Of a DNA stretch of 64,000 nucleotides, positions 1,377 to 62,430 are shown piece after piece (the first letter of the stretch is position 1; each line of letters opens with the position of its first letter). Position numbers and translations under genes: made by a program. Where the stretch lies: positions 93,725,740-93,789,739 of the forward strand of contig JAOWCC010000577.1 of the NCBI GenBank assembly GCA_030867875.1, read 5' to 3'. The notes below the pieces were generated by a model. That model saw nothing but the letters and a program-made list of their open reading frames with translations. It ran no database searches and was not told the origin of the DNA. The stretch is from Actinernus sp. WN-2022. Taxonomy: Eukaryota; Cnidaria; Anthozoa; Actiniaria; Actinernidae.

Positions 1377-1447
1377 CTTCATGTCTTTTGAGGTTCCAAA
1401 GCCGCTGATTTTGACGACTTGCTTTTCGTCCAGCAGAATGTTCCTCC
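1377..1447 (-). CDS. Exon 14, kinase metal-binding loop (GFG for DFG)
   Basis: Residues 802-825 (RNILLDEKQVVKISGFGTSK). The codon for the usual DFG Asp is GGC (Gly817), while Asn804 of the catalytic loop is kept. KIS-FGTSK is otherwise typical of MAP3Ks. Acceptor GTCAAAAG, donor AAG|GTATGT, phase 1 in, 0 out. The activation segment and C-lobe must lie below base 1. Confidence 0.85.
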
Positions 1448-4400: not shown

Positions 4401-7400
4401 AATTCACTCTTTTCGCCTGGTGGCCATCTTGGATTCAAAGCGATGCGATCCTTTGTTTTTGCTAGGTTAGCCACGCACTGAGGGATATCAGAACGAGTTT
4501 ACCTAGCAAAAAAGAAAAAAAATATTGCCTCGCTATGAATCCAAAATGGCCACCATGGAAAAGAATGAATAGTATCACAAAGTGATACCATGACATTTCG
4601 GATATTAGTTATTACATTTTTCCAAGAGCCTCCGGAGGATTTGAAAAATATTCTCCGCCTGCGGCGTCGAGACTTCCACAAATCCTCATTCAGCTCTTGG
4701 GGAAATTTAATCACTAATTTTCCTTGTAATCGTACATCTTATACCCCTGCATTCACACCAACTAAACCTGTTTAATTAAACTGAGTTTATGTAGCCCCCA
4801 TATTGCATGTGTTTAGTTGCATAGAGTTAAAACTATATCGTTTAGTTAAGGTCAATTTTGCGAATGCGAATTAAACAGCTTTTAGACATAACTGTTTAAG
4901 CTTTGGTGTACTAACCAATAAAACCCAGCTCACGAAAGATTCAGTGGTCTTTACATGGAATTACAACTATTGATTTTCAATCTAATGCTCGTCTTTTTTA
5001 AGCTGTTCAGTTATATATCATTCAGTCCGCTCTCTTTACTTCCTTTATTATATCAATATTTATGTGTATGTATATGCGTGTACATGTATGTGTATATAAA
5101 TATATGATGCAGATTATATTTGTTTATTTGAATTACACAAGCCCTCTCGATGAGCTATAGCTCTTGGAGCAAATGTAAAGAAAATATATTGTTCAAATAA
5201 ATAATAATAAAAACTCCCCGCGCTTTTCAGTACGCCTATACGTTTTTAGTACGCCGTATACGTTTTTAGTACGCCGTATACGTTTTTAGTACGCCGTATA
5301 CGTTTTTAGTACGCCGTATACGTCCTCTATACTGCTTCTAACCTTTGATATCTCCGTGAATGATTCCATTTTCGTGTAGGTACGCCAAACCAGTGATTAT
5401 CTGCCGGGTGAAACTTCTGGTGTTCAGTTCATCAAATGGACCATTCGTAACAATTTTCTGGTAAACAGATCCCTAAGTCAAACAAAGAAATACCAAAACT
5501 CAGCAAAAATGTTAGGAATATTACTAGGTATAGCGTTTGTGAAGCCAAAGTGGAATGCAAAAATAACTAATTTCGTGGAAAAAGATGGGCGGGGATTCAG
5601 GTTTCTTGATGGAAACCACTGACTCTTCTGATGTGCCTCTTTTTTGCCTAATAGGCAATTTTGACCTCTAAAAGGGACAACAAATAGGAAAAGTAAACTC
5701 GAAGGCCAAAAAACTACTAGAAAAAAAATGTTGGTTGGTCATATATTTGTTACAAGCAAAAAAGGGCAAACATTCCTACCTGAATTTGTTTTCCCCTCAC
5801 AACTGAAGCAACCCTAAATCTAAAGCTACCTTTGAAAATCAGACAATTAGATACAAAGACTGAGGGTTATTAACTTCACTGATTCCTACCCCTGGTATGT
5901 ATTCCATGAGCATGGCCAGGGTGGTGACAGTTTCCCTTGCAGAATAGTATCGCACTATGTGCAGATGCTTAATAGTCTTTAGAATGTTGATCTCTTTCCT
6001 CAATGCCGCCACGTGCTGCAATCAAATGATTCCCCATCTAAGTACCTCTTAAAGCACGTTATAGTACCCATCAAACACTACTTAATAATTCATGAGGTAA
6101 GTAGCCAACCAGAGGTCTTGATTTGTACCCATGTAAAAATGAAAGGCGGGATCCCGCCTATCCCACCTGGGATCCCACCTTCTTTACAGCTGGGATCCCA
6201 GGCGGGATCTTGTGAGATCCCGGCCGGGATTATTAGACATCCCGCCTCAGACAATCCCACCTGGGATCCCGCCTTCCCACCCGGAATCCCGCCCGGGATC
6301 CCGCCATCCCGCCCGGGATCCCGCCATCCCGCCCGGGATCCCACCATCCCACCCGGGATCCCACCATCCCACCCGGGATCCCACCATCCCGCCCGGGATT
6401 ATTAGACATATCCCACCTGGGATTCTGCCATCCCATGCAAATGCTGGATCCCACCTGGGATTGGCGGGATCCCAGCTATCCCGCCTGGGATGTAACAAAT
6501 CCCACCCGGGATCCCACCTCTATAAAGCCAGCATAATTATTCCATGAAATGTTTTGTTTACATACTATGAATTCTTTTCATTGTACTGGTATGTAAACTT
6601 TAATTTATAGAAAAAAATTACATACCGGTATATCGTATTGAGATAGCAGATACTTAACATGATTGGCAGGTAAAAAAATAATTATATAGTGAATGACATA
6701 GGACCTTCTATAGCTTAATGTATACTTGGGTTGCTGGGTCCTATAAAAAAAAAGCTTAATAGGAAAGCTTTTACGGTAGCCATGCAGTGTTTCAATCAAT
6801 TTAATAAAGAGATGAGGGCTTAGAAAAGCTGAAATGGCTGTTATGCCTATACCATAAAATCCTGTTTGTATTCTCTTCTGGTATGATTAAACCCCTGGCT
6901 ATAGACTGGTAACATAAAATCTAATAAAAGACCTCTTCCAAAAAACATGGCAGAATTTTAATTGCAAACGACCAAACTTGCTGTTATAAATTATTTAATG
7001 TCCATTATATTTCATGGTCTTATACTGCACTGGCTCACTAAAATTTAATCCACACAATTTCTAGCTCATGTACTTGATCCGATCTGCAAATCGATAGACC
7101 TCTCCTTGTTCAAGCACTTGCAAGAGATCAAGTGACAAAGTGCTGTGCCGAATCCGCTGTGCCTATGATGGAAGAAAGTAGTGTGTTAAAAGTTATTGAA
7201 TACGAGAGATGCACGTAGCAAGAGTTATTTTCCAAAATTGTAGTACAGTGTTCTATTTATGCACATACTGTTAAAAAATATGTATTTCCCCTAGGCCTAT
7301 AGCTATAAAGTGAAATTTCACATGCACAATGTCCACTAATTTACAGAAGAACTTAAAGTATTGACTGAATTGAATTTGTTTGAATTGCAATTCCGTATAA

Positions 7401-10400: not shown

Positions 10401-11139
10401 TCAATAGAGCCCTGCATAACATAAATAAGAAACAAAAATAAAAATACATTAATAATCTAGAGTTAAAAACTAGGCTAAAAATACATTTATAGAGTGACTA
10501 GAGCTAAAGTTCATGATAATTCAAAAACATGTCTTTTGACATTCTGTTTAAAACGTTTCCCGCAACGAATTATCTAAACTATTCCATTCACTAAAACCTT
10601 GGTATAATATATAAACGTTGTTTGCCATAATTAAGCTTGATTCTTGGAAGTCTAATCGAATTCTTTCTCCTTGTATTATACATGTGAATGTCACTGTTCT
10701 TTTTAAAGATATTAAAATCATAATCAATGAGTCCATTGACAAACTTATATTTTAAAATATTACGATGCACAAGACGACGTTTGGAAAGAGTAGGCCAATT
10801 GAGATTTGACAAGGATTGTGCTGAAGAACTATACCTAGGTAAGTTAAGAACTATCTTGGCCGCCTTATTTTGCAAAATCTGAAGATCGTCCATAAGGGTT
10901 GAGTTGTATTTGTCACCCGGCGCATCCTTAGACAGAGACGTATAAGCCGTTGGCCTTGTCTCCTTCCTCTTCTAGTAAAGTAAAGTCACCTTTATTTATA
11001 GAGGGTTTAAACACGTTAACCGGATAACAGTTATCTAACACGTGGCCCTCTCTTTACTTTAGTCCTACGGTTCTACATCCTTATCCGAGAAGACGAGAAG
11101 GTCTAACCGTTCACTGTTCAATTATGTAAAGGCAGCACC

Positions 11140-11178
<39 letters not shown>

Positions 11179-14100
11179 CCAGGGTTTGAACCCACGACCT
11201 CCCGCTCAACAGATCGGAGCTCAACCACTGAGCTAACGGGGACTGAGGCGGTTAGCTCTTCTAATCTATACAAGAACCAATTGTGCTGTTTCGTGAAAGA
11301 GTAGGGGATTGTCTTCCGACACAACAGCCTGGTATTCTGAGGTACTAACAATCACTCATGATTGTCAACTGCATGGCAGCTCATGGCAGCACATTGCGCC
11401 ACAATTATAGTAGCCCGTATCACAAAAATAACTTTGTGAAGTACTGCATTTGAATATACGCATACAGAATTTGCGCTATATAAATGAATACTTTTACCTT
11501 TTTTAAACGACAGAAACTAACCTCCTTAATATCAGGTGCGTCTTGTCCGAGGCCAACAACTTTAACAGCAAGATTTTCTCCTGAAACTTTGTCTCTGCAA
11601 AGGTACACCTAAAAACAAGTTCAACATAACTTCTTTAAAGTGCTTATGAGCCCTAGCCAGAAATTGTTTATTTGGGTGTAGTAAAATGTTTAAGACCTTG
11701 TTCAACCATTATTGGGTGATTTATTGTCGTAATATTGCTATAAAATGCGTTACAAATCCTTGAAATGACGTCATATAAGTCACATTATGCTAATGAGTTG
11801 AACATGAATTGAGTCACGCAACACTGAATGTCGTTATTTTTTCGTTTTGTTTTTCAGGCTTCAGATATTTGATCCTTGCTATCTTATTGAAATATATTGT
11901 AATAAGTGGAGTTGACATAAACATAGAGGAAAAGGAACTAAAATTGGTTTGAGACGTAAATGACGTCATTCAGTGATCGTTAATAACTGTCCTTGAGCCA
12001 TTTTGTCACATTCCTCGTAGCAAGTCAAAGACAAATCAATGACCTAATCTTTTTCCATAAGATTAAGAATAAGTTTCTCAGTATTAAAATTGAAATTTTC
12101 CAAATGAGTGTTTATGTACTTTCGACCTGGAAGTCTTCAACATTTATGTAATTTCCGTCACATCGGTGCAGGCGTTAATGCCTATAAACAATCATTTTTT
12201 ATTTGCCAGATGTATTTCATGTTGGAATCTCCTTCCAAGCGAGGCTGTAATCGCACAGTCAGTATTTTTTTTCGTTCCTTGGTTGTTGATATCCCGGGTG
12301 GCTACTGATTCTGACCTTTCCCGCATTCGATCGAACAATGGCACCAAGTTGAAATTCGGGGTAGAGAAAAATACAGTAAATGTATGAACATGTCTACTCC
12401 AATCTCAAATTGGTGCCATTGTTGGTGGACATTCGGGAGCGGAATGCGGTAAAGGTCTATTAGTTTTCGCAAGTTTATCGTAATAGCATGTAATAGCTGC
12501 GGTTACACTACCCCAGATAAAGTCGTCTACCCAATAAAACTAACCCCAATAAAATCCATCTGGGGTTTGAATTTACCTGGGTACAGCGGTTACACGAAGA
12601 CCGTTGAATATCACGCCCCAGTAACTTTGTGGCTTCGTTGATCTTCGCTTCGTTGATCAAAACAATCACGCCTCTCGAGAGCTGTCAGATCCTCGAAATT
12701 TCATTGGCTGGACTATCTGGGGTCGGCAGCGACCCCTAAGACTTATCTGGGGTGCTATCAAGGGAAAGTTCCATTGTTCTTTCTTTCGTAACTATGGAAA
12801 TATACCTAGGTACGTTTTCTCCTGGGCAAATCGGTTAGACACGGAAACACGAATTTACCCGGGTAAATTTCCAATATACCTAGTAAAACTGGTCTAGTGT
12901 AACCGCAGCTATTATTAGTGTCAGTTTTGTATTATATACATTTTGTAATGTAAATATGTAAGTACAAACCGGCGCTGACCGTGCCTGGATTAGTTTATGC
13001 TACAACTGGAACGAGTTCAAACCATTTTTGTATACATGTTTGGGAACCTCGACAGAAAAACAGTACGCGCGCTGTGTGATGGAAGACACCATTTTAAATA
13101 GCATTGCCGAGAACGAAATACTTTTTTTCTGAAGTAGTCTACTCTTTCGGAGAACTCATTTCTTTCAGAGCTTGCTTGTTTAATGTCATCTATAGATATA
13201 TTCCTGGTCATATTGCCAAAGGCTAAGAGCGAATCCGATTACAAAATAAATAGCACTTCGAACGTAACGTAGGAGATATACATCTCTCTCAAAAAGTATT
13301 ATCGACTAACCTTGGCATAGCCCCCTGACCCTATCATTCTGACCAACTCATAGTATTCTGGGTCTAGAAAGTTTCCCAATCGATTCAGCTGACGTTGATC
13401 CTTTTTCTTTGGCTTGGATAATTGGGGAATTGGGGAACCTCGGAAGCCAGGCCTTTTTTCCTGAAAAGTGAAGGTAATATGTGTCATCATGACCGACTGA
13501 AAACATTTTGGAACTATTTTATTACTTAACATATGGCACTACACAATATATAGTTCAAGTATGATCCTCTTGAGTCGCACGCTCTTTCGTTTGGTTTGAC
13601 TAGAAAATTCATTAAGCACCTTTTATGGTCGACACTCGCTGCACAAGTTATTTAGAGATTCGACGGCGATCGCGCGCGAATAGAGTGATTTCACTAAACC
13701 CGTGAAACAAAATCTACTAGTCTGTATCTAGTACATTGTCTTGAATAAAACAGAAGAAAACAATGGAATTACGTGTCTCCTACTGTGCATTAGTCTACTA
13801 ATTGTTTCACGGGTTTTCTGCAATCACTGCTGATATCCAAATAAGTAAATACGTCCAATCATATTCGAATGTGGAAACACTGAATATAAAGATATGAGTA
13901 AAACAAGAGTCGAAAGCCTTAATGCGTCAAGGTGTCACCAATGCGTTATCAGTTCAATGTCAAAGCATTACTCGAAATTGCTCCTTCAAGTTATTCAAGT
14001 AGTTATTAATTCAAATAATGAGTAGCATTATTGATTTTGCAGTGTTGATGTCAGTGGTTCAACCATAATCTATCTTTAATATATAATTATCGATGAAATA

Positions 14101-32100: not shown

Positions 32101-35100
32101 AAGAAATACCAGACTCGATTCCACGCCGTAAAGTTTAATTACTGTGATCTTAGAACTTTTACGCTTTTACTTTTATTTTTAAAAGTTTTGAGGCTTGATA
32201 TGTATGGCGATTAGTCACACAAGACCCTGAAGTTGTCCTATTGTAGTTTTTTTGGTACCAGAGATTGTTTTAACCGGACTTTTTGTGCAAAGTGTATATG
32301 CCATTGCCGTACATGAACTTACGTGTGTTCATAATTCTGAAAACAAAAATATTCACCAAAGTGCCATGAAACTTTTTCCATAACATACTCAGTATGTGTG
32401 TTCACTCCTGCAGAAAAATCATAATATTCCATGAAAGATTTGGTCTTCTAAAAGCCAAAAACCTAGGAGAATGTTTCAGATCTATAAATGCATGAGATCG
32501 GATTTATATAAGCAGAGGAAGATTAGTGATTTACCAAATCCCGTACGTAGATTCACAAACACATCGTTTCGACGAATGAACGATTCCAATGCTTTCTTCT
32601 GCTCTGTATATAGCTTCGAAATCCTGAAAACTTTACAACTTCGGTCAACACACTGCTCAAGTTCTTCTTCCCCAACGCCATTAGAAAAATATGCGGGCAC
32701 ATTCCTTAAATTCCAGACTTTGCCAAAAGTGTAAAGTTCGCTCTGATTGGTTGAACTTATGACGTCAGAAACATGAAAGTCTATGAAGTCCATCAGACGG
32801 GGAGGGGGAGGAAGTGAGCGGACGACCTCGTACCGTCTGATAATCAGGCTACGTGCGCAGGAGCTTTTGCTGAGATGAGGCGCAAGATAGCACGGGAAGG
32901 GCGAAGAAGAGAAAGCTTGGTCCACCCTTCCCTTGGTCTTTGCGCCCCTTCTTCGTCCTTCCCGTGCTCCCTTGCGCCCCATATTTCTTCTTTCCAACAA
33001 AAGCGCCTGGGTAAGAATCTTCGCATAATCAACGCACCTCGATCCATTGTGCTCGTGAGCAATAACAAGAAATGCCACGTATTCCGATGCCAAAGCGACT
33101 TTATGACGGTCGCCGACATCAAGATGAATTCAGTTGCAGTTTGCTTTCAAGTTCTTTCCTTCTCTGCAGTCTGAACTATCTATTGCCTCAAAAAGGGGAG
33201 CAGCACGGAACCTTTCGAGACCTGTATTCTGACTGCACTTTCTAAAGGTTAGAGTGTTTTCTATTGTTGGGTAGGCCAATACTGTCGCTCGTTTCGAGAA
33301 GTCCACCCGACACAAAAAGGGAGACTGAACCGCCTACTTAATTTGAATTACTGCGAAAAAATAGGTATTCGCCAAGGAAAATTGTCAGTAATCAAAATGC
33401 ATGAATGCTTTTTAATGCCTAGAATGTTTCTCTGATGTCAAAACGAGTCCATGGACTCTGCAGGGTCACACAGCGGCAAAAAGTTACACTGCATGCCGGT
33501 CGAAAACACGAAGGCGCTGGAGTTCAAATAAAAGTTTCCGAGTTCTTAAACTTTTTTAGTAAATAATTTTATAACTTACAGTGAATTACAAATTAAGAAA
33601 CCTTAAATCTGTGAAAGTCTTAGGCTTGGCTTTTATGTAGTTTTCTTGTTTTTCGCTTAACATTTCATGTAAATGTGCATACGTACTTAAAATTAGACAC
33701 AGGTAGGGGTTATTGCCTGTTTTCTTTTAGTTTCGGCGGGAAACTGGGGAGACGCGCATGCGCATACGCATTTTGCCGCGGTGTGCTGCAGTCCGCGGAT
33801 TCCGAGTTCAGTCCAGTCCAGTCCATATTAGTTTGAGTCCAGTCTCTGTTTTACAAAATGTCTGTGACTGGATCGGGATGACAAAAAGTCTGGGAAGCCA
33901 TTTCAGTGTTGCAGTGTGTTGTACGGTAACCGTGCTTCAGGACATTGCTGTAAGGGACCATTCATTATTTATGGCCGGGGGAGGGGATCGGATATATATT
34001 TGGGGGGGGGGGGGGTTCTCTCAATTTCAACCATGCAAAAGGTGAGATCATTCAAAGCAATGTACGTTAGAGGGGGTGTACAATTTATGAAGCAGTTGAT
34101 ATTTCGAAACCCTCAAAATGCCAGAGATAGCATTTATGAGGTTTCTAAAATTCAAACATTTCCGGTGGAGCATGTTCCCAGCTGGTAACGCACTTGCGGG
34201 CATCAAAAAAAGATGACGACGCTCAAAGTTAGGTGCTATGGTCTATAAATGTCTACACGGAAACGTACCTGAATACATATTCACTCCAACAAATCATATC
34301 CAACAAAACAATCTAAGGCGTTCAGACTCAAACCTTTCCATACCCAGACCAAATAGCGAGGCTCGGGAAAATAGTTTCTCATATTGGGGTACAGTGCTTT
34401 GGAACTCACTTCCATTGAACAGCCTATAAGATACTAACCACGCTGAACTTAGTATTAATTAGTGGAAATGTTAAATGAATTAGACATATCATCTTATCTT
34501 TAAAATTCTTAGCTAAAATTAGGTTATTGTAATTTTAAAAACTATATTTTATATACTTAGCACGGCTCTCTGGAAGAGCATGTTTATGAAGAGATACCGT
34601 GGTTAAATAACGGTTTATTACATATTACATTCTCTGTCCCACCAATAATTTCACCACAGCGCCGCCCCCTGTATTCTATTTGGTATCTCATGGTTTGAAA
34701 TAACATTGGTTTCATATCCAAATCTTCCGATCCCCCCGATCCCCCTCCCCCATACCATACATAATGAATGTTCCCTAACTTTTCCAGTAATAGCGATACT
34801 TCGTGTTGATAAACATTACAATTGTTATGCTAATGTGCCAATCATGATTTCAAAAGGCCGCTTTGTGTCGGGAACCAATGGATCTCTGGTTGGCACATTA
34901 ATGACAATGGATGACGTGGCAGTAAGTATCGCTATACACGTACCTCTCATTTTCTGTGTAACTTCATCTTGTTTATGCTGAACGACACATACAAGGGGCA
35001 TGACAAATGACTTCTTCACTTTTTGCTTCTTCATGTAGGCCGAAAAACTAACCGTCTGTGGTACAGAACTCAGTTTTTGATAAAGACATGAGGCAGTCAT

Positions 35101-38100
35101 AACTAGCGATGATGAAGCCCAGGTAATCCATGCCCATAAACTGTAGATTGAAAGAAATGTTTAAAATGCTTTAGTCGTTCCTTAATTGTGCTGCTTAACC
35201 GCGGCATGAGTTAATCTACTGCTTTATTTGCAAAATTTAATCAAAGCTGAAACATTTATCAAGCAAGTAATATTTATGTTGTTCTTAATATCAGGGCCGG
35301 CCGAGTTGTTTGAAGCAAGAGTAAGCGCTGCTACCTCGGGATTAAACTGTACAGATTACAATTACAGATTTAGCTGTTGAGCGATTTTCGATTGAGTGTC
35401 TAAAGCAACAAGTGATTGCTTTGGTTTTGCGTTTGCTTAGCTTTTCTATTGGCTGTGAGAAATGTTTTCCAGTTATCAGCGAATCAAGTTCTAAACTAAA
35501 ACCAAACGCAATCACTCAATCAGGTTTTGTTTTAGCGACAGTATTGACGACTGCGTTTACTTTGCCTCGTAATTGATCAAGTAAAACCAATCGTGAATTA
35601 CTTCTGTCAGTTCGTGATTGACTTATTGTGTTTTCACTTACTCCTGTGATTAGCTATGTAATTACTTTGGTTTTGGTTTTACTACACTCAACTGAAAACC
35701 CTTGCTTCGAACAACCGGGTCCAGGACTAGAAATTAACGCTCGCAAACTCACAACATGCTGGTAGATTGTTTTATTTGCGAGTGAAAAACCTTCCACTAG
35801 CAAATTTCTGCGAGTCGGTCTTTGCTTCACGTACCACCTGGAGTCTGAAAACTTCGAACAATCGTGGCATATTAACAAGAGTTTATAAGCCTAATTCTTA
35901 CCCGATTAAAAGCAAGTGGGCGTTAACCTATGATTTCCTGCGATCTGATTGGTTCCGGGAGCGGTTTTTTTTTTCTGACCACGGTAACCAGTGCGCATGC
36001 TCTCAGGTTTAGGGTCGGTCCGTATATAGAGAAAAACTTGCCCTCGGTCTTGAAAGTACTGACGTCTGCCTGTGACCTTCGTTAGTACATTTCAAGACCG
36101 CTGGCAAAGAATTTGTCCATACGGACCTCCAGGCCTGTAAATATGTATTAAATAAATAAATGTACTTCTAATGAAATAATGTGATACGTACTGTAAACGT
36201 AGAGAATATGAGTATGTAGCATTTCATTTGGCCAGTACCCTCCGGAATTTTGCTCTAGCTAGCCGACAATTTGCTTTTTATTTATTTATGTATTTATTTA
36301 TTTATTTATTAACTTTACAACTATAGTATTTAGCACATTATTACAATGACAAACAAACCGCACTACAAAAATATAGACAGAAAAACAATTTACAGTACAA
36401 GCTTGCCAACTAGTTGTCGGATAGAACAACGGGACAAGAGTCCCAGATAAAGTTCATCCTATAACATAATTACAAACACTAAGGAAAAATACAAGGACGA
36501 CTAAAACATTAAAACGAGCTTTGAATATGCCGATTATGAGCAGCAAGTTGTATTGCACTTAGAAGTTAAGTTCGAGCCTGAGGATTGACCATACTTATAC
36601 TCACGGAGAGAAATGTTCAACACTGAACACTACGAAGGATCCCTGCCGCTCGAGTAATACACTCTCAGTAATGTCTACCCATTTTGGATCATCGTGACTC
36701 TCTCCTTCCTCAAGCCGAAGCAGCCGTACTTCTTCTTTAGGATGTCTATCGCCATGACAAGGTACTTTGATAATGACGGGTTTAGAGAATACCTTTCCAT
36801 CAAAACCGTCAATCCACGCAATAGGGCAGGGAGAAGCGTCGAGATTCTCGCTGAATCTTTCTGGTATTCTTTGTACCTATATGAACAAATATATATATAT
36901 ATATGAGCGTAGTTATCACAAAAAGGCTACTACTACCCACCATACTTGGCTGGCATGCACGTAGTTTTTGGTCTCCCGGCTTTTCTCGTTTTCTCGGTCC
37001 TTAACCGGTTTTCTTATCAGAGGGGTGTTAGACGTGAGTCGTCCTTTTGTGTTAACATTGCTCATGATAGAACACTGTTGTCCATATTTCAGAATTTTCT
37101 CTCTTTATTAAAAGCCATATGCGCTCATGCATTTTCAGTCCTTACGATGTCAGTACTTCAGTATTTTCTCTCTTTATTAAAAGCCTATAGGCGCTCGCGA
37201 GTTTTATCGCTCTTTACGATGCATAAATAATGCTAAATCGTTTAGAAGTGCCAGCTCATGTAGTTATCCTACTTTGCATTTCAGTGTGCGTTCAGTCTGA
37301 AACGGCGATTGGTCCGATGATATCAGTGCAACGTTCTGCAGTGCACCCTGGTAATGCAGCCTGAACTATAGGTAAAACTGCCCACATTATGAGCGTAGTT
37401 AACACAAAAAGGCTACTACTACCCACCATACTTGGCTGGCATGCACGCAAGTTTTTGGTCTCTCGGTTTTTCTCGTTTTCTCGGTTTTTCTCGTTTTCTC
37501 AGTCCTTAACCGGTTTTCTTATCAGAGGGGTGTTAGACGTGAGTCCTCCTTTTGTGTTAACATTGCTCATATATATATTAACAATAACCTATTTGTGGCG
37601 TCGAAATGTGCCCTGATATTTCGTCCGTGGATATTTTATGTTCCGCTTCCAGGATCAGATATTGTCCAAGGACAAATATCAGGGCATATTTCGACGCCAC
37701 AATACAGGTTGTTTTGTTATCATCCTTCAAAAGGTTTCTTTGACGCGCGCTTACGCTTACGCCTATTCGATGATATTTTTCGTCTGGCAGAGAAAAATAT
37801 TGGGTCCACCAATCACGCGCGAGAAAACGAGTTATAAGAAAATGGTTGATATCATTGTTATATTCCATATTTGGTTATTTTGAAGTAGGCTTTTACTAAT
37901 ATGCTAGCAATTTTTTAGCATTTTGGTAAGGCAAAAGCATTAAAAATAACGCCTGCATTTTGTCAATGATTTTACCCAAAGTAATGATAATCCAGTCAAG
38001 GATAAAAATAAACATTTGTCACATTCCGAACGGCGGTAGACCCACTTAGTATAGTATAGTGGTCATGACGTCTGCACTACACGCAAACGGTAACTAGTTC

Positions 38101-41100
38101 GACTCCCAGTAGGACCGCTCAAAAAAATTCTCTCTAGTTTACTTCTCTTCTTGTTTACCTGTGAACTCTAGCCCGATGGTTAAGGTTCATTTTGTGGTTC
38201 GGGTGAATAATGATTATCATTACATTTAGTGTGAGAAAGCGTGGAAGAGACGGGCCCTGGCAACTAGTGGATGTCCAAGAGACATCAATAATTATGTTAA
38301 AGTACAACAGTAAATAACTGTCTCAGAACAGTCTGTCTGATGGGTTAATGGAACAAGAGTACAAAACCTTGCGACTTGAGACAATTTATACGATTTTGTT
38401 ACACCCCCGATCAGTTAAATGTTAGCATAAAGACAGGTATCCCATAACAATGTATGTATACATAAAAAGAGTTTGTTTTCACAACGAACATACATGACTT
38501 TCATAATGGCCGCCTCCAGCCGCCTCCTAATTTGCATAATTTGGAAGATAAATCTGAAGGGGGAAACCAATGCTACCACATGAAAGATCACATTAAAACT
38601 AGTAACTGTTTTGAGTTTTAGAGCAATGTGGAAAATTGCTGTTGAGCAAGGCTATAAAGGCCTCCGTTGTTTTTCTCATACAAATCTCTATAATTTCAAC
38701 TGGCTGTAACTTCATTGCTTTATAAGCTACAGCACTCAACTTTCACAAGTTCACTAATGTCGACATGCTCTTTCGCATGGCAATGTTCATATTTTCTATA
38801 CAAGTGGATAAACTACCGAAACGGGAAATCACATATGCAAATTAGGAGGCGGCCATTATGAAAGTCGTGTGTGATTCCAAGCATTTTGGGACCTTGTGCC
38901 GAGTAGTGTGAGCATTATTTTTGGTAGGCAATTTAAGTACTATGCATTATCATTTCAGTAAGGGAAAAATATGCAATAACCTATTTGCAAGCTGCTAAAA
39001 AGAAACATGATCTTGGTGAGTTGTAATAAAGAAAATGTACAATAATATTTAGCATGCATGTACATCCATACTTTTAATTCCCCGTTGCACGTCCTTTTAA
39101 CTGCTCCTCTGGGAAACTCCACCACTATATCTGGACAGACAGACGACTGAATGACAGCACCATTACCATCAACCTGGAATGTATCCGTGACAAGCCTGCT
39201 AACAACAGCGAGAGTGGTGAACTCCCACAACTCAACACGAACATAAGGAGCACGAGGAATGGGAACATCATCGATAGTATTCGCAATATCTGAGAAAGGA
39301 AAATAGCTCACGTAAAAACTCAATGAGTGCACGTTATTTCTAGAATTACAAGACGCTTTGACATAATTTAATTTCGAAATCCCCGAAGTGGAGGTGACTA
39401 GTAATGCATGTTTACTAGCCTGCTTGCCAGCTCATATTCTGTGTTTTTTTTAGACATTTTTTCTGGCTAGATACTTATCGAGTCGCAAAGCGGCGAGGTA
39501 AATATATTCACCGGTAGTCACCAACACTGAGGGGAATAATTATTTTAATATATACCACACATGTGAAATAGTCAGTCTCAAATTAGCTATTTTATTTTTC
39601 GTTAGAAAGTTCACGCGCGCCATTTTTTCCCCGAGGTGAATACCCAGGTGGGTGTCGGAAATTTTAGAAGGAAACCCTAAGAGGTACCATAATCTCGTTC
39701 TGTGGGTGTGGCTCAAATTTGCTTTCACCCGTAAAAGGTACCAATCCAATAATACGAAATTAACTGATATTTGATCCAAGTGCAATAGACTGAAAATACC
39801 AAGACGCGAAGCCAGGCCAAGAGACGATAATTTTATTTCTGGCAAGTAGTTCTTATCTTATTTTGAATACTCTAAGTGGTACCAAACTATGCATTTTAAC
39901 CCCTAAAAGGTACGACGAGCATCCCCGGCAGTATCATATAGTGAGACCACACGGGGGTGAATAGTAGCAAATGATTGTGCAAAAAGCATTATTCACTTGT
40001 GTGGTGTATACTAATTTCCAATATGAACTGCTTATAATTATTAATCTGCTAAAATCGCGGAGCGAAGCAAAGCACCTGGGACGAGCACGGAGCGTGAGGA
40101 ATCATGGGGAGGGAGCAGAGATGAAGAGAGAGGCATGGTCATGTTATGATCTTAGTTCAGTTATTCATCAAACACGCTATGAAAACAACAATGTTCCTGC
40201 AAACAAACCTTCCATTGAACTGGAAATCTCTACAATCGTTCTTGTTGACATTTTCCAATTATTTTCATCTCCATTGAATTCTTTCACCATCACTTCATAC
40301 CCAGGGTTTCTCAACGAAGCGGAGTGTAGAATGGTAACAACAACAGGTTCATGTAACACTGTGGAGACTGGTCCGAGTTCAATAATGTTACTGACGAGTG
40401 TTTCACCGTCACTGACTGGAGTCGGTATGGACTGACTTGAGTGTAATAAGCACGCGACATCAACATTTTGAGTGACAGCTCCAGGTGGGACTTTTAAATG
40501 GATACCATACTCAGGGAGGTAAAATAAGCCACCTTGTTGTTTTCTGCAAAGTTTCGAACAGTTTTTGTCTGAGTTATTTCTATTTTTATGATAATTTTGA
40601 TGATGTTTCCCAGCATTTGGCATCTAAAGGCTATTAGTAATAAAAATGGAGGAATTAAGTTTATGTTACGTCGAGATAGAGGAAGCCGTTACCGGATCTC
40701 CGAAGCCAGTGGGGTGTGTTTAACTATTCGACGAATACCTTTGAAATTTAGGTTGTTTTTTGTGGAGGGAGGAAAACTGGAGAATGCGGAGAAAAACCCT
40801 CGGAGGATACCAACAAACTCAACTCACATATGGCGCCACGATAGGGAATCGAATCCGGGCCATAGAGGTGGGAGATGAAGCACTTTCCACTGTCCCACCC
40901 CGGCTCTCCATAAAAATAAACGAAAGAAATGTTGAACTAAATTAAATGTTTAGAATGAGTAACATGATGAACATTACACATTGCATACGGTATGTGCTTA
41001 TGACTCAATACTTAGTGGGAAATAAAAGAAATGTGAAATGTGACTTATACTTGCATTTGTACACTTGTAGTTCTTAACTCTTCAAAACTTGTACACTCAG

Positions 41101-42908
41101 TTGCCTCTGTCGCAGATATTTGTAGATTTGCTTCTTCTACCTTTTCTGGCACCTTCTTATTCTCTCCCAAATCTTCGTAATCCTTCTTTTCCTCATCTTT
41201 CTTCGTTTCCGAGTTTACATCTGCATATTTCCATTCCTCTTTCTTCTCTTTTGACTTCGTCGCTGTTTCCTTTTCTAATTCCAATGGTGCGGGTAACATT
41301 TTACCTGTGTAAGCATGATTTGGAATAGTTATCATATTAAAGGACCCTCCATGATCTAGCCAGTTTGAGGGTTCTTGAACAAATGATATGACCTTCTAAA
41401 GATTGTTATAAATGAAATTAAACGGTTAATGCACATTGTAAGCTCGAAGTATTTCATGATTTTGGAAGGTGGTTCATTCTTTACACTATAAGTACCGGAT
41501 TACTTGCGAACCAGAAATTCGATTCAGCTACCAATTATTCTGCTATTGCCATAATTATAAAATAGTGTTTCTCTTTGGTGCTACGTTATTTTTGATATGC
41601 ATACCTACACAATATTAGTATATAAAAAAACGGTTTTCAAATACGAACCAACGACGACCAAGAGACTGATTCAGCTAGCTTGCCTCCGTTTGGTACCCCG
41701 GGGAGACAAAAACATTACTTCAGATCATCTGATTTTACCCTTGAGGCTTGAGTAATGATTTGTGTTTGTTTTTCTGTATCCCAAGCAGTAATGCAGGAAT
41801 TTCTTGAATTAAAAAACAAAGCACCGTCTGAACCTTTAGAGATAATTTGAAATGGGGCAACAAATTAAAGAGCCAAGCTGAATCGGTCCATTCGTCGAAA
41901 TACAATAATTGTTTCTTGTTGCTGCGCAGCGAGCGCGCCTGAAGCGAGCGAGCAAGCAGCAATATAAATCGGTGTAGTGTTGCCGATTTTCTCAATTTCT
42001 TCCTGCGCATTGCATTGTGATTATGAGCAAGGACAACCAAATTGAATGCGCACAAGGACCAAATTGCAACGCCAGCATGATGTAGGAACCATCATTTACT
42101 ACATTGATGTGAAAACACAAGGTTATATCAGCTCTACAGTAGGTATACCATTTACTACATTGATGTGAAAACACAAGGTTATATCAGCTCTACAGTAGGT
42201 ATACCATTTACTACATTGATGTGAAAACACAAGGTTATATCAGCTCTACAGTAGGTATACCATTTACTACATTGATGTGAAAACACAAGGTTATATCAGC
42301 TCTACAGTAGGTATACCATTTACTACATTGATGTGAAAACACAAGGTTATATCAGCTCTACAGTAGGTATACCATTTACTACATTGATGTGAAAACACAA
42401 GGTTATATCAGCTCTACAGTAGGTATACCATTTACTACATTGATGTGAAAACACAAGGTTATATCAGCTCTACAGTAGGTATACCATTTACTACATTGAT
42501 GTGAAAACACAAGGTTATATCAGCTTTACAGTAGACACCATTTACTACTACCAAGATAATGAATAATACAACAAACTCCTGGCGTATCTATGCTCCGAGT
42601 TATAGAATACACTCTGCTTTTGCTATGTTCTGTATGTCATTTTGATTGAAACCCCTATTGTTTTTGGCGTACATTATTTTATGTTTCGGAAGACTTGGGA
42701 TATATACCCCTCCCCCAAATGCAGCCATAATAATTACAGAATACAACTCACTATGTCGTTCACTTGCTTTTCTGTAAGGGAGAGGTTTCTTAACCGAAGA
42801 TCCCCTCGATGGAATGGCTGCCTGTGCTTGGGCTAGGTCTTTAGGGCTCACGGGTTCCGTCTGTGACCTCACGAGTTTCTTTTCAAGACGGCTATGCTTT
42901 GAACTCAT
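1377..42908 (-). CDS. ZU5-ZU5-UPA-protein kinase fusion gene (14 exons, 3' end outside window)
   Basis: Exons (high to low): 42752-42908, 41051-41304, 40209-40623, 39072-39289, 36605-36876, 34944-35140, 29359-29439, 26804-26948, 21526-21697, 13311-13460, 11522-11608, 5890-6015, 5343-5472, 1377-1447. All junctions are GT-AG and phase-compatible; together 2,475 nt = 825 codons without a stop. Residues about 1-165 are polar and charged; ZU5-1 about 166-310; ZU5-2 about 318-438; UPA about 445-636; basic linker 638-670; kinase from about 672. ZU5-ZU5-UPA is the core of ankyrins and PIDD, normally followed by a death domain. The kinase resembles MAP3K/STE11 enzymes (MEYIPGGSVY motif). No LRR or ankyrin repeats are seen before ZU5-1. 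Probably a cytosolic signalling protein (inference). Extra small exons, especially in the 8-kb intron before exon 10, cannot be excluded, nor a split into two genes there, although phase and strand fit one gene. Confidence 0.8.
1713..2310 (-). pseudogene. LINE reverse transcriptase C-terminal remnant
   Basis: Two overlapping minus-strand frames give the conserved end of CR1/L2-like LINE ORF2: IDDRLSWSKHVEQ, LIQPHFDYCSSVWDGL and, after a frame break, IMMFKIIHGLAPVYL and YNGAVLWNN. It is 5' truncated and frameshifted, so dead. Confidence 0.85.
2889..2990. repeat. Fragment of a TIR repeat family
   Basis: GGCAAAACGTTGTACTCCGC and following sequence match the left ends of the elements at 28,944 and 33,463. 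The right half is not present. Confidence 0.55.
3281..3524. repeat. Near-perfect foldback (about 92-bp arms)
   Basis: Arms 3281-3372 and about 3432-3524 are almost perfect reverse complements around a loop of about 60 bp. The copy at 43 kb lacks this segment, so the foldback inserted into the host element. Confidence 0.75.
3675..3770. repeat. 32-bp tandem repeat, 3 copies
   Basis: Three identical 32-bp units beginning ACGCTGTGACATAGGCC, made from the terminal part of the surrounding element. Confidence 0.9.
4234..4298. repeat. 21-bp tandem repeat, about 3 copies
   Basis: CATTTTCCAGTCTGC followed by AGTCTG is repeated about three times. Confidence 0.75.
4401..4570. repeat. Foldback element, copy 1
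   Basis: AATTCACTCTTTT...GGTGGCCATCTTGGATTC at the left pairs with GAATCCAAAATGGCCACC...AAGAATGAAT at the right. A sibling copy lies at 29,633-29,806. Confidence 0.7.
5229..5325. repeat. 20-bp tandem repeat, about 5 copies
   Basis: CGTTTTTAGTACGCCGTATA repeated four times exactly at 5241-5320 plus partial units, immediately 3' (in gene sense) of exon 13. Confidence 0.9.
5343..5472 (-). CDS. Exon 13, kinase helix E and catalytic loop
   Basis: Residues 759-801 (GSVYQKIVTNG ... TRQIITGLAYLHENGIIHGD). The catalytic loop reads HGDIKG: Asp799 is kept but the Arg of HRD is Gly798, making it a non-RD kinase. Acceptor TTGACTTAG, donor AAAG|GTTAGA, phase 0 in, 1 out. Confidence 0.88.
5890..6015 (-). 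CDS. Exon 12, kinase subdomains III-V
   Basis: Residues 717-758. LRKEINILK carries Glu724, the helix-C partner of Lys703; HLHIVRYYSARE and LMEYIPG follow, the latter being the hinge. The next exon completes MEYIPGGSVY, as in MEKK-type MAP3Ks. Acceptor TTTGATTGCAG, donor CCAGGG|GTAGGA, phase 0 both ends. It lies only about 130 bases from a GGGATCCC-rich array. Confidence 0.88.
6130..6525. repeat. GGGATCCC-rich array, copy A
   Basis: Dozens of the palindromic core GGGATCCC, with a regular 20-bp period (GCCCGGGATCCCGCCATCCC) at about 6289-6395. The left border GTACCCATGTAAAAAT corresponds in reverse to the border of copy B. Very GC-rich against an AT-rich background; open frames across it are by-products of the repeat. 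Confidence 0.85.
6540..8700. other. Intron sequence, nothing recognised
   Basis: AT-rich intron between exons 12 and 11. Short open frames (for example 7663-7863 minus) have no recognisable domain or splice context. Confidence 0.4.
8735..8990. repeat. Irregular TTCATAG-rich tract
   Basis: The heptamer TTCATAG and near variants recur more than a dozen times at irregular spacing. Not a fixed-period repeat. Confidence 0.6.
9087..9500. repeat. GGGATCCC-rich array, copy B (inverted)
   Basis: Same family as 6130-6525 in opposite orientation: repeated CCAGGTGGGAT / GGGATCCC blocks ending CCCGCCTCTATTTTGACATG GGTAC, the reverse complement of the copy A border. Confidence 0.85.
9525..9600. repeat. 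Palindrome
   Basis: AAGTCCAAGGACTTTGAACT then ATGAATATTCAT then AGTTCAAAGTGCTTGGACTT: a near-perfect inverted repeat with an almost loopless centre. Confidence 0.8.
10560..10893 (-). pseudogene. LINE reverse transcriptase C-terminal remnant
   Basis: Minus-strand frame with LQILQNKAAKIVLNLPRY, then LNWPTLSKRRLVHRN and MYNTRRKNSIRLPR, the typical end of a non-LTR retrotransposon RT. Truncated at both ends. Confidence 0.85.
10976..11245 (-). mobile_element. tRNA-derived SINE
   Basis: The minus strand carries an A box (TTAGCTCAGTGGTTGAG, 11220-11236) and a B box (GGGTTCAAACCC, 11182-11193) at tRNA spacing, followed by an unrelated 3' body. Not a functional tRNA: the acceptor stem does not close. 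Confidence 0.8.
11522..11608 (-). CDS. Exon 11, kinase subdomains I-II
   Basis: Residues 688-716 (VYLCRDKVSGENLAVKVVGL). Lys703 in AVKVV is the ATP-anchoring lysine of strand beta-3. Acceptor CTTGTTTTTAG, donor GGAG|GTTAGT, phase 0 both ends. Confidence 0.88.
12491..12914. mobile_element. Short TIR element
   Basis: Ends TAATAGCTGCGGTTACACT and AGTGTAACCGCAGCTATTA are reverse complements; the 424-bp interior has no coding sequence. Confidence 0.7.
13311..13460 (-). CDS. Exon 10, linker and kinase glycine-rich loop
   Basis: Residues 638-687. Basic Pro/Lys/Arg-rich linker (KPKKKDQRQLNRLGNF), then the kinase start (YYELVRMIGSGGYAK). The glycine loop reads IGSGGYAK plus V from the next exon: the first two glycines (681, 683) are present and the third is Ala. 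Acceptor TTCACTTTTCAG, donor AAG|GTTAGT, phase 0 at both ends. It joins exon 9 in phase 0. Confidence 0.85.
13683..13834. mobile_element. Short TIR element
   Basis: GTGATTTCACTAAACCCGTG...AAACAA at the left pairs with TTGTTTCACGGGTTT...GCAATCAC at the right. No coding sequence. Confidence 0.65.
14130..14384. repeat. Inverted-repeat (foldback) element
   Basis: Arms 14166-14224 and 14323-14382 share GAATAATACATGGACGCTTG and following sequence in opposite orientation; CGTTCGCTGCGCTCACTCG-type sequence occurs at both outer ends. Confidence 0.7.
14873..15790. repeat. 30-bp satellite array, about 30 units
   Basis: Unit ACTTGCTCGTGACTGGTTCA plus TTGTGTTTTT. Variant units (GATTGG, GACTGT) and two 29-bp units at about 15174 and 15473 recur with a 10-unit, 299-bp higher-order period. 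The long open frames through it (up to 196 codons) follow from the 30-bp period and are not genes. The flanks match the element at 35,288-35,726, which has a single unit. Confidence 0.95.
16169..16193. repeat. Poly-C tract
   Basis: Run of about 24 C; the length may be unreliable in sequencing. Confidence 0.9.
16440..18155 (-). pseudogene. Decayed LINE, reverse transcriptase region
   Basis: Minus-strand fragments in order: GDLRSTWSIINELTSRK (18,130), TPIFKKG-like and RPIS-like segments near 17,650, KAFVTVNHQILLEKIQKYG (17,440, the RT motif usually KAFDTVNH) and a CSPVWDN-like end near 16,480. Broken by many stops and frameshifts. Confidence 0.75.
18299..18448. repeat. Hairpin with A-rich loop
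   Basis: CCCTTTATGTAGGACGACAC pairs with GTGTCGTCCTACATGAAGGG; the loop is a degenerate AATACAACA repeat. Confidence 0.8.
18617..19690 (+). pseudogene. LINE 3' end (RT C-terminus, 3' UTR, TTG tail)
   Basis: Plus-strand frames read IKYLGILIDSNLSWKKQVE, YYALIYPFLIYGIIIWG and, after a frameshift, LQKKAMRII-type sequence. The element ends in a (TTG)n microsatellite at about 19,690. Truncated 5'. Confidence 0.85.
19800..20480. mobile_element. Internal part of a TIR element, split by a LINE
   Basis: 19,811-19,915 and 20,391-20,475 match consecutive parts (25,321-25,510) of the element at 24,857-25,636, starting CACAGGCTACCAAAGAATCA. The LINE fragment at 19,915-20,390 lies exactly between them. 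Confidence 0.75.
19915..20390 (+). pseudogene. LINE RT C-terminal remnant
   Basis: Reads RLHWLPIRAMILFKIILITYK, then a YGERSFQ...ARLWNSMH-like segment and a TTATTATT tail: the end of a CR1/L2-like LINE inserted into an older element. Confidence 0.75.
20800..20985 (+). mobile_element. SINE fragment without tRNA head
   Basis: CACATGTGAGTTGAGTTTGT...GGGTTTTCTCCGGGTTCTCC matches the body of the SINE at 40,735-40,910 on the other strand. Confidence 0.65.
21526..21697 (-). CDS. Exon 9, end of UPA domain
   Basis: Residues 580-637. The segment SRLSFLKDGAAQDVVCRLPI closely matches the end of ankyrin and PIDD UPA domains (a RLSF/VSF strand, then Ala/Val-Cys and LPIK or LNIT). Acceptor ATATTCGCAG, donor ATACCA|GTAAGT, phase 2 in, phase 0 out. 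This exon identified the UPA domain. Confidence 0.85.
21980..24180. other. Intron sequence, nothing recognised
   Basis: AT-rich intron between exons 9 and 8. Open frames such as 23618-23938 (minus) have no domain similarity or splice support. Confidence 0.4.
24191..24275. repeat. Hairpin with G/C-run arms
   Basis: TGCACTAGTC...CCCCTCCTCCCCC pairs with GGGGGAGGGG...GACTAGTGCA. Confidence 0.7.
24857..25636. mobile_element. TIR element with AGGGTTACCCT repeats
   Basis: Ends GGGCCCGTTTACAAGGAGAT and ATCTCCTTGTAAACGGGCCC are perfect reverse complements (TAA.../...TTA outside). Both ends carry CTAGGGTTACCCTAG-like subterminal repeats. A possible GTC target duplication flanks it. No coding capacity seen in about 780 bp. 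Confidence 0.8.
26051..26528. mobile_element. Mutator-like element with 9-bp target duplication
   Basis: TIRs of about 70 bp starting CAACCTCGTTCCCAGGGGTC, with a perfect direct repeat GGCGGTCCC at 26042-26050 and 26529-26537. Non-autonomous. Lies in the intron just upstream (gene sense) of exon 9. Confidence 0.85.
26546..26627. mobile_element. Mutator-like mini-hairpin
   Basis: 82 bp, ends CAATCTCGTTCTC / GGGAACGAGATTG, flanked by CGTCTCACG and CATCTCACG (8 of 9 identical). Confidence 0.65.
26804..26948 (-). CDS. Exon 8, UPA domain, middle part
   Basis: Residues 532-579 (KGSENIWVNDETYCVDRDRL, then an aromatic and Cys-rich strand). Acceptor TGCTACAAACTATCTTAG and donor ACACG|GTAAGC are both good. 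Phase 1 in and 2 out fit exons 7 and 9. The IWVNDETYC segment sits where ankyrin and PIDD UPA domains have their central conserved strand. Confidence 0.75.
27125..28640. other. Intron sequence; AT microsatellite only
   Basis: Between exons 8 and 7 of the large gene. Contains an (AT)n run at about 27,574-27,592 and another near 28,772-28,790; no exon or known repeat recognised. Confidence 0.4.
28944..29263. mobile_element. Short TIR element (copy 1 of family)
   Basis: CACACCGTGGCAAAACGTTA...CCGCTGGTC at the left pairs with GACCAGCGGAGCATAAAGTT...CGGTGTG at the right. Sibling at 33,463-33,790. Confidence 0.75.
29359..29439 (-). CDS. Exon 7, UPA domain, middle part
   Basis: Residues 505-531 (KDYILLCESTADDDMRPGD core), aligning with the UPA strand-helix segment that carries the acidic turn in ankyrins. 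Acceptor ATTTCAAAG. The donor is the weak TTCAAAG|GTGGTC; it is chosen because it alone gives phase 1 and joins exon 8 into a continuous UPA alignment. The frame stops if the intron is read through. Confidence 0.7.
29633..29806. repeat. Foldback element, copy 2
   Basis: CAATCCTTTGTTTTTGCCAG GTTAGCCTCG pairs with CGAGGCTAACCTGGCAAAAA CAAAGGATTG, extending to AATTCACTCTTTT ends. Same family as 4401-4570 but with longer arms. Confidence 0.8.
29977..31035. mobile_element. Large inverted-repeat element with internal hairpin
   Basis: AATTATTCACCGAAGTGGAG...GAGCCGCTT at the left pairs with AAGCGGCTC...CTCCACTTCGGTGAATAA at the right; ATATACCACAC-type sequence follows on both sides. A second hairpin, 30,659-30,815, is centred near 30,736. 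Related fragments lie at 39,370-40,020 and 45,381-45,485. Confidence 0.7.
30659..30815. repeat. Hairpin inside the large IR element
   Basis: GCGCGCGAAAAGTGATATTC AC...TAGTATATACCACACCAG TGAATATCACTTTTCGCGCG form arms of about 70 bp. Confidence 0.8.
31761..32851. mobile_element. Mutator-like element carrying a helicase fragment
   Basis: TIRs of about 95 bp beginning TAGCCTGATTATCAGACGGT, with a perfect 9-bp direct repeat CGTGCGCAG at 31752-31760 and 32852-32860. The interior includes a RecQ-like helicase fragment on the minus strand. No transposase seen, so non-autonomous. Confidence 0.85.
32482..32740 (-). pseudogene. RecQ-like helicase N-terminal fragment
   Basis: Minus strand reads KLYTEQKKALESFIRRNDVF then a Walker A-like TGFGKSLIF. 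This is the Q-motif/motif I region of RecQ-type DEAD/H helicases. The frame ends soon after, so only about 85 codons of a normally much longer protein are present; the frame also continues out through the TIR by chance. Confidence 0.7.
33463..33790. mobile_element. Short TIR element (copy 2 of family)
   Basis: Shares TTCTTTTAGTTTCGGCGGGA, the TAAATAATTTTATAACTTA tract and the ends with 28,944-29,263. Confidence 0.75.
34230..34640 (+). pseudogene. LINE RT C-terminal remnant and 3' UTR
   Basis: VYKCLHGNVPEYIFTPTNHI ... YWGTVLWNSLP is the standard LINE ORF2 end; the 3' part (GGCTCTCTGGAAGAGCATG...) is a typical LINE tail. Confidence 0.8.
34944..35140 (-). CDS. Exon 6, HFS-proximal linker and start of UPA domain
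   Basis: Residues 439-504. Strong acceptor TTTCAATCTACAG and donor GAGAG|GTACGT. The first residues complete the ZU5 end as HFS-P-LWAWITW, an aromatic stretch like that following the PIDD second cleavage site. The rest (FSAYMKKQKVKKSFVMPLVCVVQ) fits the first UPA strands. Phase 2 in (codon CC|T), phase 1 out. Confidence 0.8.
35288..35726. mobile_element. Short TIR element, parent of the 30-bp satellite
   Basis: Ends GGCCGGCCGAGTTGTTTGAA and TTCGAACAACCGGGTCC are inverted relatives. Internal GTCAGTTCGTGATTGACTTA TTGTGTTTTCACTTACTCC is homologous to the 14.9-kb satellite unit and its flanks, present here about once. Confidence 0.75.
36270..36312. repeat. TTTA microsatellite
   Basis: (TTTA)n with one variant unit. 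Confidence 0.9.
36605..36876 (-). CDS. Exon 5, second ZU5 domain with HFS motif
   Basis: Residues 349-438. Recognisable ZU5 core: SPCPIAWID, VFSKPVIIKVPC, then PKWVDITES and the terminal strand FVVFSVEHFS. The last residues, His436-Phe437-Ser438, match the HF|S autoproteolysis site known from PIDD and UNC5CL. Acceptor ATATAG|GTAC, donor TCTCC|GTGAGT, phase 0 in, phase 2 out. The reading frame is open throughout, although a plus-strand open frame overlaps it by chance. Confidence 0.88.
36903..37069. mobile_element. Short TIR element, copy 1
   Basis: ATGAGCGTAGTTATCACAAA...TTTTGTGTTAACATTGCTCAT; about 165 bp, with AT-rich flanks. Confidence 0.7.
37388..37573. mobile_element. Short TIR element, copy 2
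   Basis: Nearly identical to 36,903-37,069, same orientation, with an extra 16-bp TCGGTTTTTCTCGTTT duplication. Confidence 0.75.
37582..37716. mobile_element. Foldback element (GTGGCGTCGAAAT ends), copy 1
   Basis: AACCTATTTGTGGCGTCGAA ATGTGCCCTGATATTT pairs with AAATATCAGGGCATATTTCG ACGCCACAATACAGGTT. Relatives lie at 45,117-45,380 and 47,893-48,108. Confidence 0.75.
38047..38112 (+). mobile_element. tRNA-like SINE head
   Basis: A box TAGTATAGTGGT and B box AGTTCGACTCC at near-tRNA spacing; the A box resembles tRNA-Asp. The stems do not pair well, so a SINE head or tRNA pseudogene rather than a working tRNA. Confidence 0.5.
38490..38868. mobile_element. Short TIR element
   Basis: GACTTTCATAATGGCCGCCT CC...TAATTTGCAT pairs with ATGCAAATTAGGAGGCGGCC ATTATGAAAGTC. 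The left arm has a small internal duplication (CGCCTCCAGC). Confidence 0.75.
39072..39289 (-). CDS. Exon 4, end of ZU5-1 and start of ZU5-2
   Basis: Residues 276-348. It opens with the last strands of ZU5-1 (VELWEFTTLAVVSR) and runs directly into the start of ZU5-2 (GAVIQSS...VVEFPRGAV). This close tandem join is characteristic of the ankyrin/PIDD ZU5 pair. At the position of the HFS autocleavage motif, ZU5-1 has Glu-Phe-Thr (298-300). Acceptor TTTCTCAG, donor TTAAAA|GTATGG, phase 1 in, phase 0 out. Confidence 0.88.
40209..40623 (-). CDS. Exon 3, first ZU5 domain
   Basis: Residues 138-275. After a His/Asn/Lys-rich stretch, the ZU5 signature begins at about 167 (GGLFYLPEYGIHLKVPPGAV): an N-terminal Gly-Gly strand followed by the Pro-Pro-Gly-Ala turn typical of ZU5 in ankyrin, UNC5 and PIDD. 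It continues through SNIIELGP and HEPVVVTI, the core strands. Acceptor AGCCTTTAG precedes an in-frame ATG; a second possible acceptor at 40544 would change the phase, so the longer exon is preferred. Donor GAAG|GTTTGT, phase 1. Confidence 0.85.
40735..40910 (-). mobile_element. tRNA-derived SINE
   Basis: Minus strand: A-box-like GGGTGGGACAGTGGAAAG (40,882-40,899) and B box GGATTCGATTCCC (40,844-40,856), then the GGTTTTTCTCCGCATTCTCC body. Lies just upstream (gene sense) of exon 3. Confidence 0.75.
41051..41304 (-). CDS. Exon 2, Lys/Glu-rich linker
   Basis: Acceptor CTTACACAG and donor CAA|GTATAAG. Encodes residues 53-137, dominated by Lys and Glu (for example KEKKEEWKYADV), so probably disordered or coiled. 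Enters in phase 1 and leaves in phase 0, matching both neighbours. No domain recognised. Confidence 0.65.
42089..42545. repeat. 56-bp tandem repeat, about 8 copies
   Basis: Unit starts ACCATTTACTACATTGATGT; copies begin at 42147, 42203, 42259, 42315, 42371, 42427 and 42483 and are almost identical, with divergent edge copies. It lies in intron 1, about 200 bp from exon 1. The period is not a multiple of 3. Confidence 0.95.
42752..42908 (-). CDS. Exon 1, N-terminus of the ZU5/kinase protein
   Basis: Starts with ATG at 42908; an in-frame TAG lies 60 bases upstream with no ATG between, which favours this start. It encodes residues 1-52: basic, then Pro/Ser/Gln-rich, with no recognised domain. 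It ends CATA|GTGAGT in phase 1, and the split codon joins exon 2 as Ser-Lys-Met. The sequence just before the ATG (ATCACAG) could also be a splice acceptor, so an upstream leader exon is possible. Confidence 0.65.
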
Positions 42909-60653: not shown

Positions 60654-60704
60654 TACATGAACTGGAAGTTGTGGTTTGACGTCACGATCTGTTATCGTGA
60701 CCCC

Positions 60705-62365: not shown

Positions 62366-62430
62366 GTTTCAGTTGGTTTCGCTTTGTAATTAAGTAATTG
62401 AAATTCGCTGGTTCTTAGCTCCTTTGCAGT

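Follow-up and report, generated by a model that had tools for sequence, protein, structure and literature searches.

A putative self-cleaving ZU5-ZU5-UPA protein with a candidate MAP3K2-like kinase in place of the death domain in the actiniarian Actinernus sp. WN-2022

The release of an effector by self-cleavage within a ZU5-UPA module has been described for PIDD, NLRP1 and CARD8, proteins of cell death and of inflammasomes, in which the freed fragment recruits its partners via a death domain or a CARD (PMC3210808, PMC7794386, PMC8081665). Cleavage occurs at HF/S after each ZU5 domain in PIDD and at SF/S in CARD8 and NLRP1 (PMC3210808), and an upstream histidine has been reported for both of the latter, namely His-270 of CARD8, the proposed activator of Ser-297 and 27 residues before it (PMC3210808), and H942 of rat NLRP1, 27 residues before S969 of the F968-S969 cleavage site (PMC8081665). 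The ZU5 part of NLRP1 restrains the freed effector (PMC8081665), and UPA helps the freed effector to cluster in NLRP1 and CARD8 (PMC7794386). The original prediction for the locus analyzed here assumed that UPA is followed by a death domain in known families, which holds for PIDD and the ankyrins, whereas a CARD follows UPA in NLRP1 and CARD8 (PMC7794386). Fusions of ZU5-UPA to TRADD-N domains have also been published (PMC8195603). The prediction had further named no characterized protein with the order ZU5-ZU5-UPA-kinase; a published look-alike exists in amphioxus, XP_035662392.1 (LOC118406448), which is listed in table 3 of PMC9573974 with LRRs, ZU5 and a kinase (1250 residues; LRRs 55-315, ZU5 448-546, kinase 956-1222) and which the available part of that paper mentions solely as a domain combination. 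Self-cleaving ZU5-UPA proteins with varied effectors are already known, and a ZU5 protein ending in a kinase has already been tabulated; with this one published look-alike, the arrangement of ZU5-ZU5-UPA and kinase appears to be rare. Among the literature matches listed, no ZU5-UPA-kinase protein is named in titles or abstract openings, and the available parts of PMC8260672, PMC4224354, PMC12909245 and PMC3482391 deal with ZU5 in other settings only.

The window, i.e., the whole stretch of 64,000 nucleotides that was analyzed (contig JAOWCC010000577.1 of assembly GCA_030867875.1), contains on its minus strand, from 42908 to 1377, 13 exons that join into an open product of 791 codons (Table 1). 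All 12 introns are GT-AG, phases agree between all 13 exons, and the joined frame is free of stops, with 38 and 55 stops in the other two frames. Joining of the exons bore out the strand, both ends and the phase compatibility that had been predicted, while the 14 exons and 825 residues proposed earlier had to be corrected to 13 and 791, as exon 6 continues straight into exon 7 in phase 1. Since the borders were placed by visual inspection so as to keep frames open and phases matched, agreement in frame and phase is no independent test; it makes the 13-exon model possible but does not establish its correctness, and homology is the independent test. No homology support was found for exons 1 and 2. 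Splice sites were scored with crude matrices and ranked against all AG or GT sites of the same strand; by this crude score, six of the 12 acceptors and eight of the 13 donors were in the top 5%, and the weak sites were the donor of exon 2 (top 25%, the lowest score among the 13), the donor of exon 5 (top 15%) and the acceptor of exon 11 (top 32%).

Table 1. Exons of the 13-exon model and the predicted cleavage motif, in window coordinates
Feature	Coordinates	Strand	Content and support
Exon 1	42752..42908	-	ATG start codon; no known domain; support limited to GT donor and phase
Exon 2	41051..41304	-	Lys/Glu-rich; no known domain; phase agrees
Exon 3	40209..40623	-	First ZU5, residues 166-251; Pfam ZU5 E 1.7e-17
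Exon 4	39072..39289	-	First ZU5 ends (EFT), second ZU5 begins; collinear with ankyrin-2 4d8o
Exon 5	36605..36876	-	Remainder of second ZU5, ending EHFSP with the P codon split; collinear with ankyrin-2
H-F-S codons, residues 436-438	36607..36615	-	Predicted self-cleavage Phe437/Ser438; sequence motif
Exon 6	34944..35140	-	UPA start; collinear with ankyrin-2
Exon 7	29316..29439	-	UPA middle; in phase with exon 6; inside the ankyrin-2 alignment
Exon 8	21526..21697	-	UPA end; ankyrin-2 alignment finishes at RLSFLKD; donor top 1.8% of GTs (crude score)
Exon 9	13311..13460	-	Linker and kinase start with glycine loop; Pfam Pkinase; acceptor top 0.9% of AGs (crude score)
Exon 10	11522..11608	-	Kinase strand bearing the AVK lysine; Pkinase and MAP3K2 alignment
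Exon 11	5890..6015	-	Kinase helix C and hinge; Pkinase and MAP3K2 alignment
Exon 12	5343..5472	-	Kinase catalytic loop, HGD for HRD; Pkinase and MAP3K2 alignment
Exon 13	1377..1447	-	GFG for DFG; donor follows, remaining kinase past the window; Pkinase to profile 148/263

The Pfam check suggested by the original prediction succeeded for the first ZU5, which was found as one stretch, and for the kinase, and failed for UPA and the second ZU5, which gave no match either within the 791-residue product or as separate pieces (0 families for three pieces), UPA remaining without a Pfam match with or without the extra exon considered below. The scaffold half was therefore judged against solved structures as a block of 440 residues (164-603, first ZU5 through exon 8), of which residues 175-581 form one continuous alignment with ZU5-ZU5-UPA of ankyrin-2 (4d8o, E 6e-21, 77.8 bits), with ankyrin-3 and ankyrin-1 chains as the next matches. 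Such a single collinear block indicates, at the level of sequence, a ZU5-ZU5-UPA supramodule. A query truncated after the second ZU5 scored 64.8 bits, a loss of 13 bits that measures the share of UPA, and about 10 of these bits are due to its initial stretch in exon 6. When the first ZU5 was removed instead, the remaining second ZU5 plus UPA matched ankyrin-3 (E 8.3e-10) and ankyrin-2 (E 8.9e-10), and UPA alone had no significant match among solved structures. UPA is accepted because it is collinear in the ankyrin-2 alignment and not by its own score. With the first ZU5 and the kinase placed by Pfam and the second ZU5 and UPA by collinearity, the domain order is ZU5, second ZU5, UPA and kinase, as had been proposed. 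Peptidase_S68, the Pfam profile named for the PIDD region between the ZU5 domains (PMC9573974), is absent from the Pfam matches of the product, which counts against a PIDD-type reading. A pattern scan for N-terminal LRRs on the minus strand beyond 42000 gave two isolated weak matches, by pattern only.

An extra exon between 34944 and 29439 seems unnecessary, the evidence against it being modest. The ankyrin-2 alignment runs across the phase 1 junction of exons 6 and 7. Exons able to follow exon 6 in phase were searched from 34950 to 29200, giving 3 and then 19 in-phase rows (2 of the 19 being parts of exon 7); the 825 residues of the earlier model correspond to 102 bases above the 13-exon model, and the candidates nearest in size have 105 bases (29659-29555, giving 826 residues) and 99 bases (31014-30916, giving 824 residues). 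The homology test covered the 105-base candidate only, in a version without the single junction residue, and this candidate was disfavored with an ankyrin score of 75.2 versus 77.8 bits, a small difference of 2.6 bits, and an alignment that halts at the start of the insert. Since simplicity and agreement with the ankyrin alignment both speak for it, the 13-exon model is favored.

The second ZU5 ends in H-F-S, a motif that was overlooked in the original prediction, whose reading as ZU5-ZU5-UPA otherwise stands. His409 is located 29 residues before Ser438, and this combination of F-S at the ZU5 end with an upstream histidine would correspond to a FIIND-type site, the likeness being one of motif, spacing and place rather than of aligned PIDD or FIIND sequences. 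Self-cutting is thus predicted between Phe437 and Ser438. PIDD carries HF/S after each ZU5; here HFS is confined to the second ZU5, and the first carries EFT, probably near the expected place of PIDD's first HFS.

The first residue of the kinase is 640, which leaves 36 residues between it and the end of exon 8, and exons 9-13 match Pfam Pkinase (E 4.1e-39) from profile position 1 to 148 of 263, where the window ends; its part inside the window comprises the N-lobe, the catalytic loop and the DFG position only. Among the best 60 of 2536 matches, MAP3K2 is the nearest kinase of solved structure (9p6a, E 5.1e-34), with MELK as the family that comes next (5.7e-27), which supports the predicted MAP3K-like class and suggests a MEKK2/3-type MAP3K by nearest sequence, an assignment made from the N-terminal part of the domain against solved chains and not from a tree. 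In NCBIfam, 17 families were matched, all kinase-like and all below their own cut-offs. The glycine loop, the AVK lysine, the helix C glutamate and the Asp and Asn of the catalytic loop, all elements with well-known functional roles, agree with MAP3K2. DFG and HRD, which are intact in the solved MAP3K2 chain, are altered: the aspartate of DFG, expected in an active kinase, is replaced (GFG, codon GGC at 1403), and that of HRD is retained in HGD; a single base change in either the GGC or the GGA codon would restore the usual residue. The kinase is best read, from these residues, as atypical or dead. A kinase that has lost the DFG aspartate is usually catalytically inactive, and CASK is another GFG kinase. 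MEKK2 bears a PB1 domain rather than ZU5-UPA, and the plant kinase ILK1 has, to our knowledge, no ZU5-UPA. Phosphotransfer activity is absent from most pseudokinases, CASK does not need a cofactor, and Mn2+ supports phosphorylation by ILK1, which is a Raf-like MAP3K carrying GFG and HCD (PMC9403797). ILK1 resembles the present kinase in being MAP3K-like, GFG and non-RD, yet is Mn2+-active, and differs in being a Raf-like plant protein. Because of GFG and HGD, direct signalling through phosphorylation by the fused kinase, as the original prediction had it, should not be taken for granted.

Whether the two halves belong together depends on the intron of 8,065 bases between exon 8 (UPA) and exon 9 (kinase), which a single gene is likely to span. 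The agreement in phase 0 at this join has an accidental chance of one in three, which counts against the fusion claim. Two adjacent genes on the same strand, one for ZU5-ZU5-UPA ending after exon 8 and one for a MAP3K-like kinase starting at exon 9 or before, are rather unlikely; seven minus-strand AATAAA words in the intron, an exon 8 frame that stays open for 119 more codons past the donor up to a stop, and in-frame ATGs just before exon 9 would suit them, whereas the donor at the end of exon 8 and the acceptor at the start of exon 9 are good, the extended exon 8 frame has no Pfam family match, and the spacing is like that of amphioxus XP_035662392.1 (PMC9573974). From the start of the first ZU5 to the start of the effector there are 474 residues here (166 to 640), compared with 508 in the amphioxus protein and 455 in human PIDD1 (323 to 778) (PMC9573974). 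By its table entry, the amphioxus protein is the strongest outside support for a one-gene fusion, having a ZU5, enough space thereafter to accommodate another ZU5 and a UPA, and a C-terminal kinase, with no death domain listed; it differs in its seven N-terminal LRRs and in the single ZU5 tabulated. As it was collected via a search with human RIP kinases and not with MAP3K2, its kinase may belong to another class, and the two fusions may be independent.

The proposal that a kinase replaces the death domain agrees with the position of the kinase, which begins about where the death domain of PIDD does and follows UPA within the window, but the window ends inside the kinase, before the region C-terminal to it. 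A death domain could lie in that region because the window ends first. Between UPA and kinase, none was found in 20 chosen open frames (stop-free, minus-strand, 41-211 residues, from 21801 to 13529; other frames, some over 40 residues, were omitted), five of which gave weak matches below the cut-off; a hidden death domain in this intron was accordingly rejected for these frames, while one split over small exons would still fit.

With about even confidence, the single gene may be considered to encode a PIDD/FIIND-type ZU5-ZU5-UPA module fused to a MAP3K2-like kinase, predicted to cleave itself and to free and cluster UPA-kinase, and the UPA fragment is best read as carrying an atypical or dead kinase in place of a death domain or CARD. 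PIDD1 shares with it ZU5-ZU5-UPA, HFS after the second ZU5 and an effector at a similar distance, and differs by LRRs in front, a terminal death domain and HFS after both ZU5 domains; NLRP1 and CARD8 (FIIND-CARD) share ZU5-UPA, F-S cleavage, the activating histidine and an effector after UPA, and differ by a single ZU5, SFS and a CARD. By analogy with release and clustering in NLRP1 and CARD8, UPA-kinase might here be released or exposed and then clustered. The protein would cut itself at Phe437/Ser438, the ZU5 part would remain bound and keep the UPA-kinase fragment inactive, loss of the N-terminal part would set this fragment free, and UPA-UPA contacts would gather it into clusters in which the kinases come close to one another; the kinase might then act as an atypical enzyme (GFG, non-RD, like plant ILK1) or as a scaffold recruiting active MAP kinase components. 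That this amounts to an inflammasome-like switch, in which self-cleavage releases UPA-kinase and a GFG-type MAP3K is clustered directly without death-domain or CARD adaptors, is suggested more tentatively.

Improbable, although compatible with a real fusion, is a protein without self-cleavage that forms a rigid scaffold like ankyrin or UNC5 and anchors the kinase to a site on the membrane or cytoskeleton; ankyrins are the top sequence match over the entire module and the first ZU5 has EFT instead of HFS, but HFS is present where the second ZU5 gives way to UPA, a place at which the aligned ankyrin-2 differs and has no HFS. Ankyrins further differ from the present protein by their ankyrin repeats and death domain. 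A decaying or mis-assembled locus, with GFG and HGD marking a gene that is losing function, is very unlikely, as the single-base changes that separate the GGC and GGA codons from the usual ones and the several tandem arrays in introns are set against zero stops in 791 codons (though borders were selected for open frames) and against the glycine loop, AVK lysine, helix C glutamate and catalytic-loop Asp/Asn matching MAP3K2.

If UPA can carry a kinase, ZU5-UPA would be a general release-and-cluster switch, and, if the self-cleaving UPA-kinase reading is true, MAP3K clustering induced by self-cleavage could be tested with a single protein. GFG raises the question of kinase signalling by phosphorylation versus scaffolding.

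Several repeats and retroelement-like frames were observed in and around the gene. Intron 1 contains a 56-base unit in 8.2 copies (42093-42548, 99% match), the intron between UPA and kinase a 30-base unit in about 30 copies (14887-15786) that is open in several frames and thereby gives long ORFs, and the kinase introns tandem arrays rich in GGGATCCCA (6286-6399 and 9155-9454). Three frames (10594-10971 and 2013-2318 on the minus strand, 18584-18985 on the plus strand), each with 0 Pfam families, presumably resemble the ends of retroelement reverse transcriptases. A minus-strand frame of 215 codons that lies between UPA exons 6 and 7 (32485-33129) has a weak, sub-threshold match to DEAD/DEAH helicases (E 0.0011). 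At 57166-62368 on the minus strand, BEL/Pao-type retroelement frames, which were searched separately, contain DUF1759, aspartyl protease, Pao peptidase, a sub-cut-off RVT_1, integrase and DUF5641.
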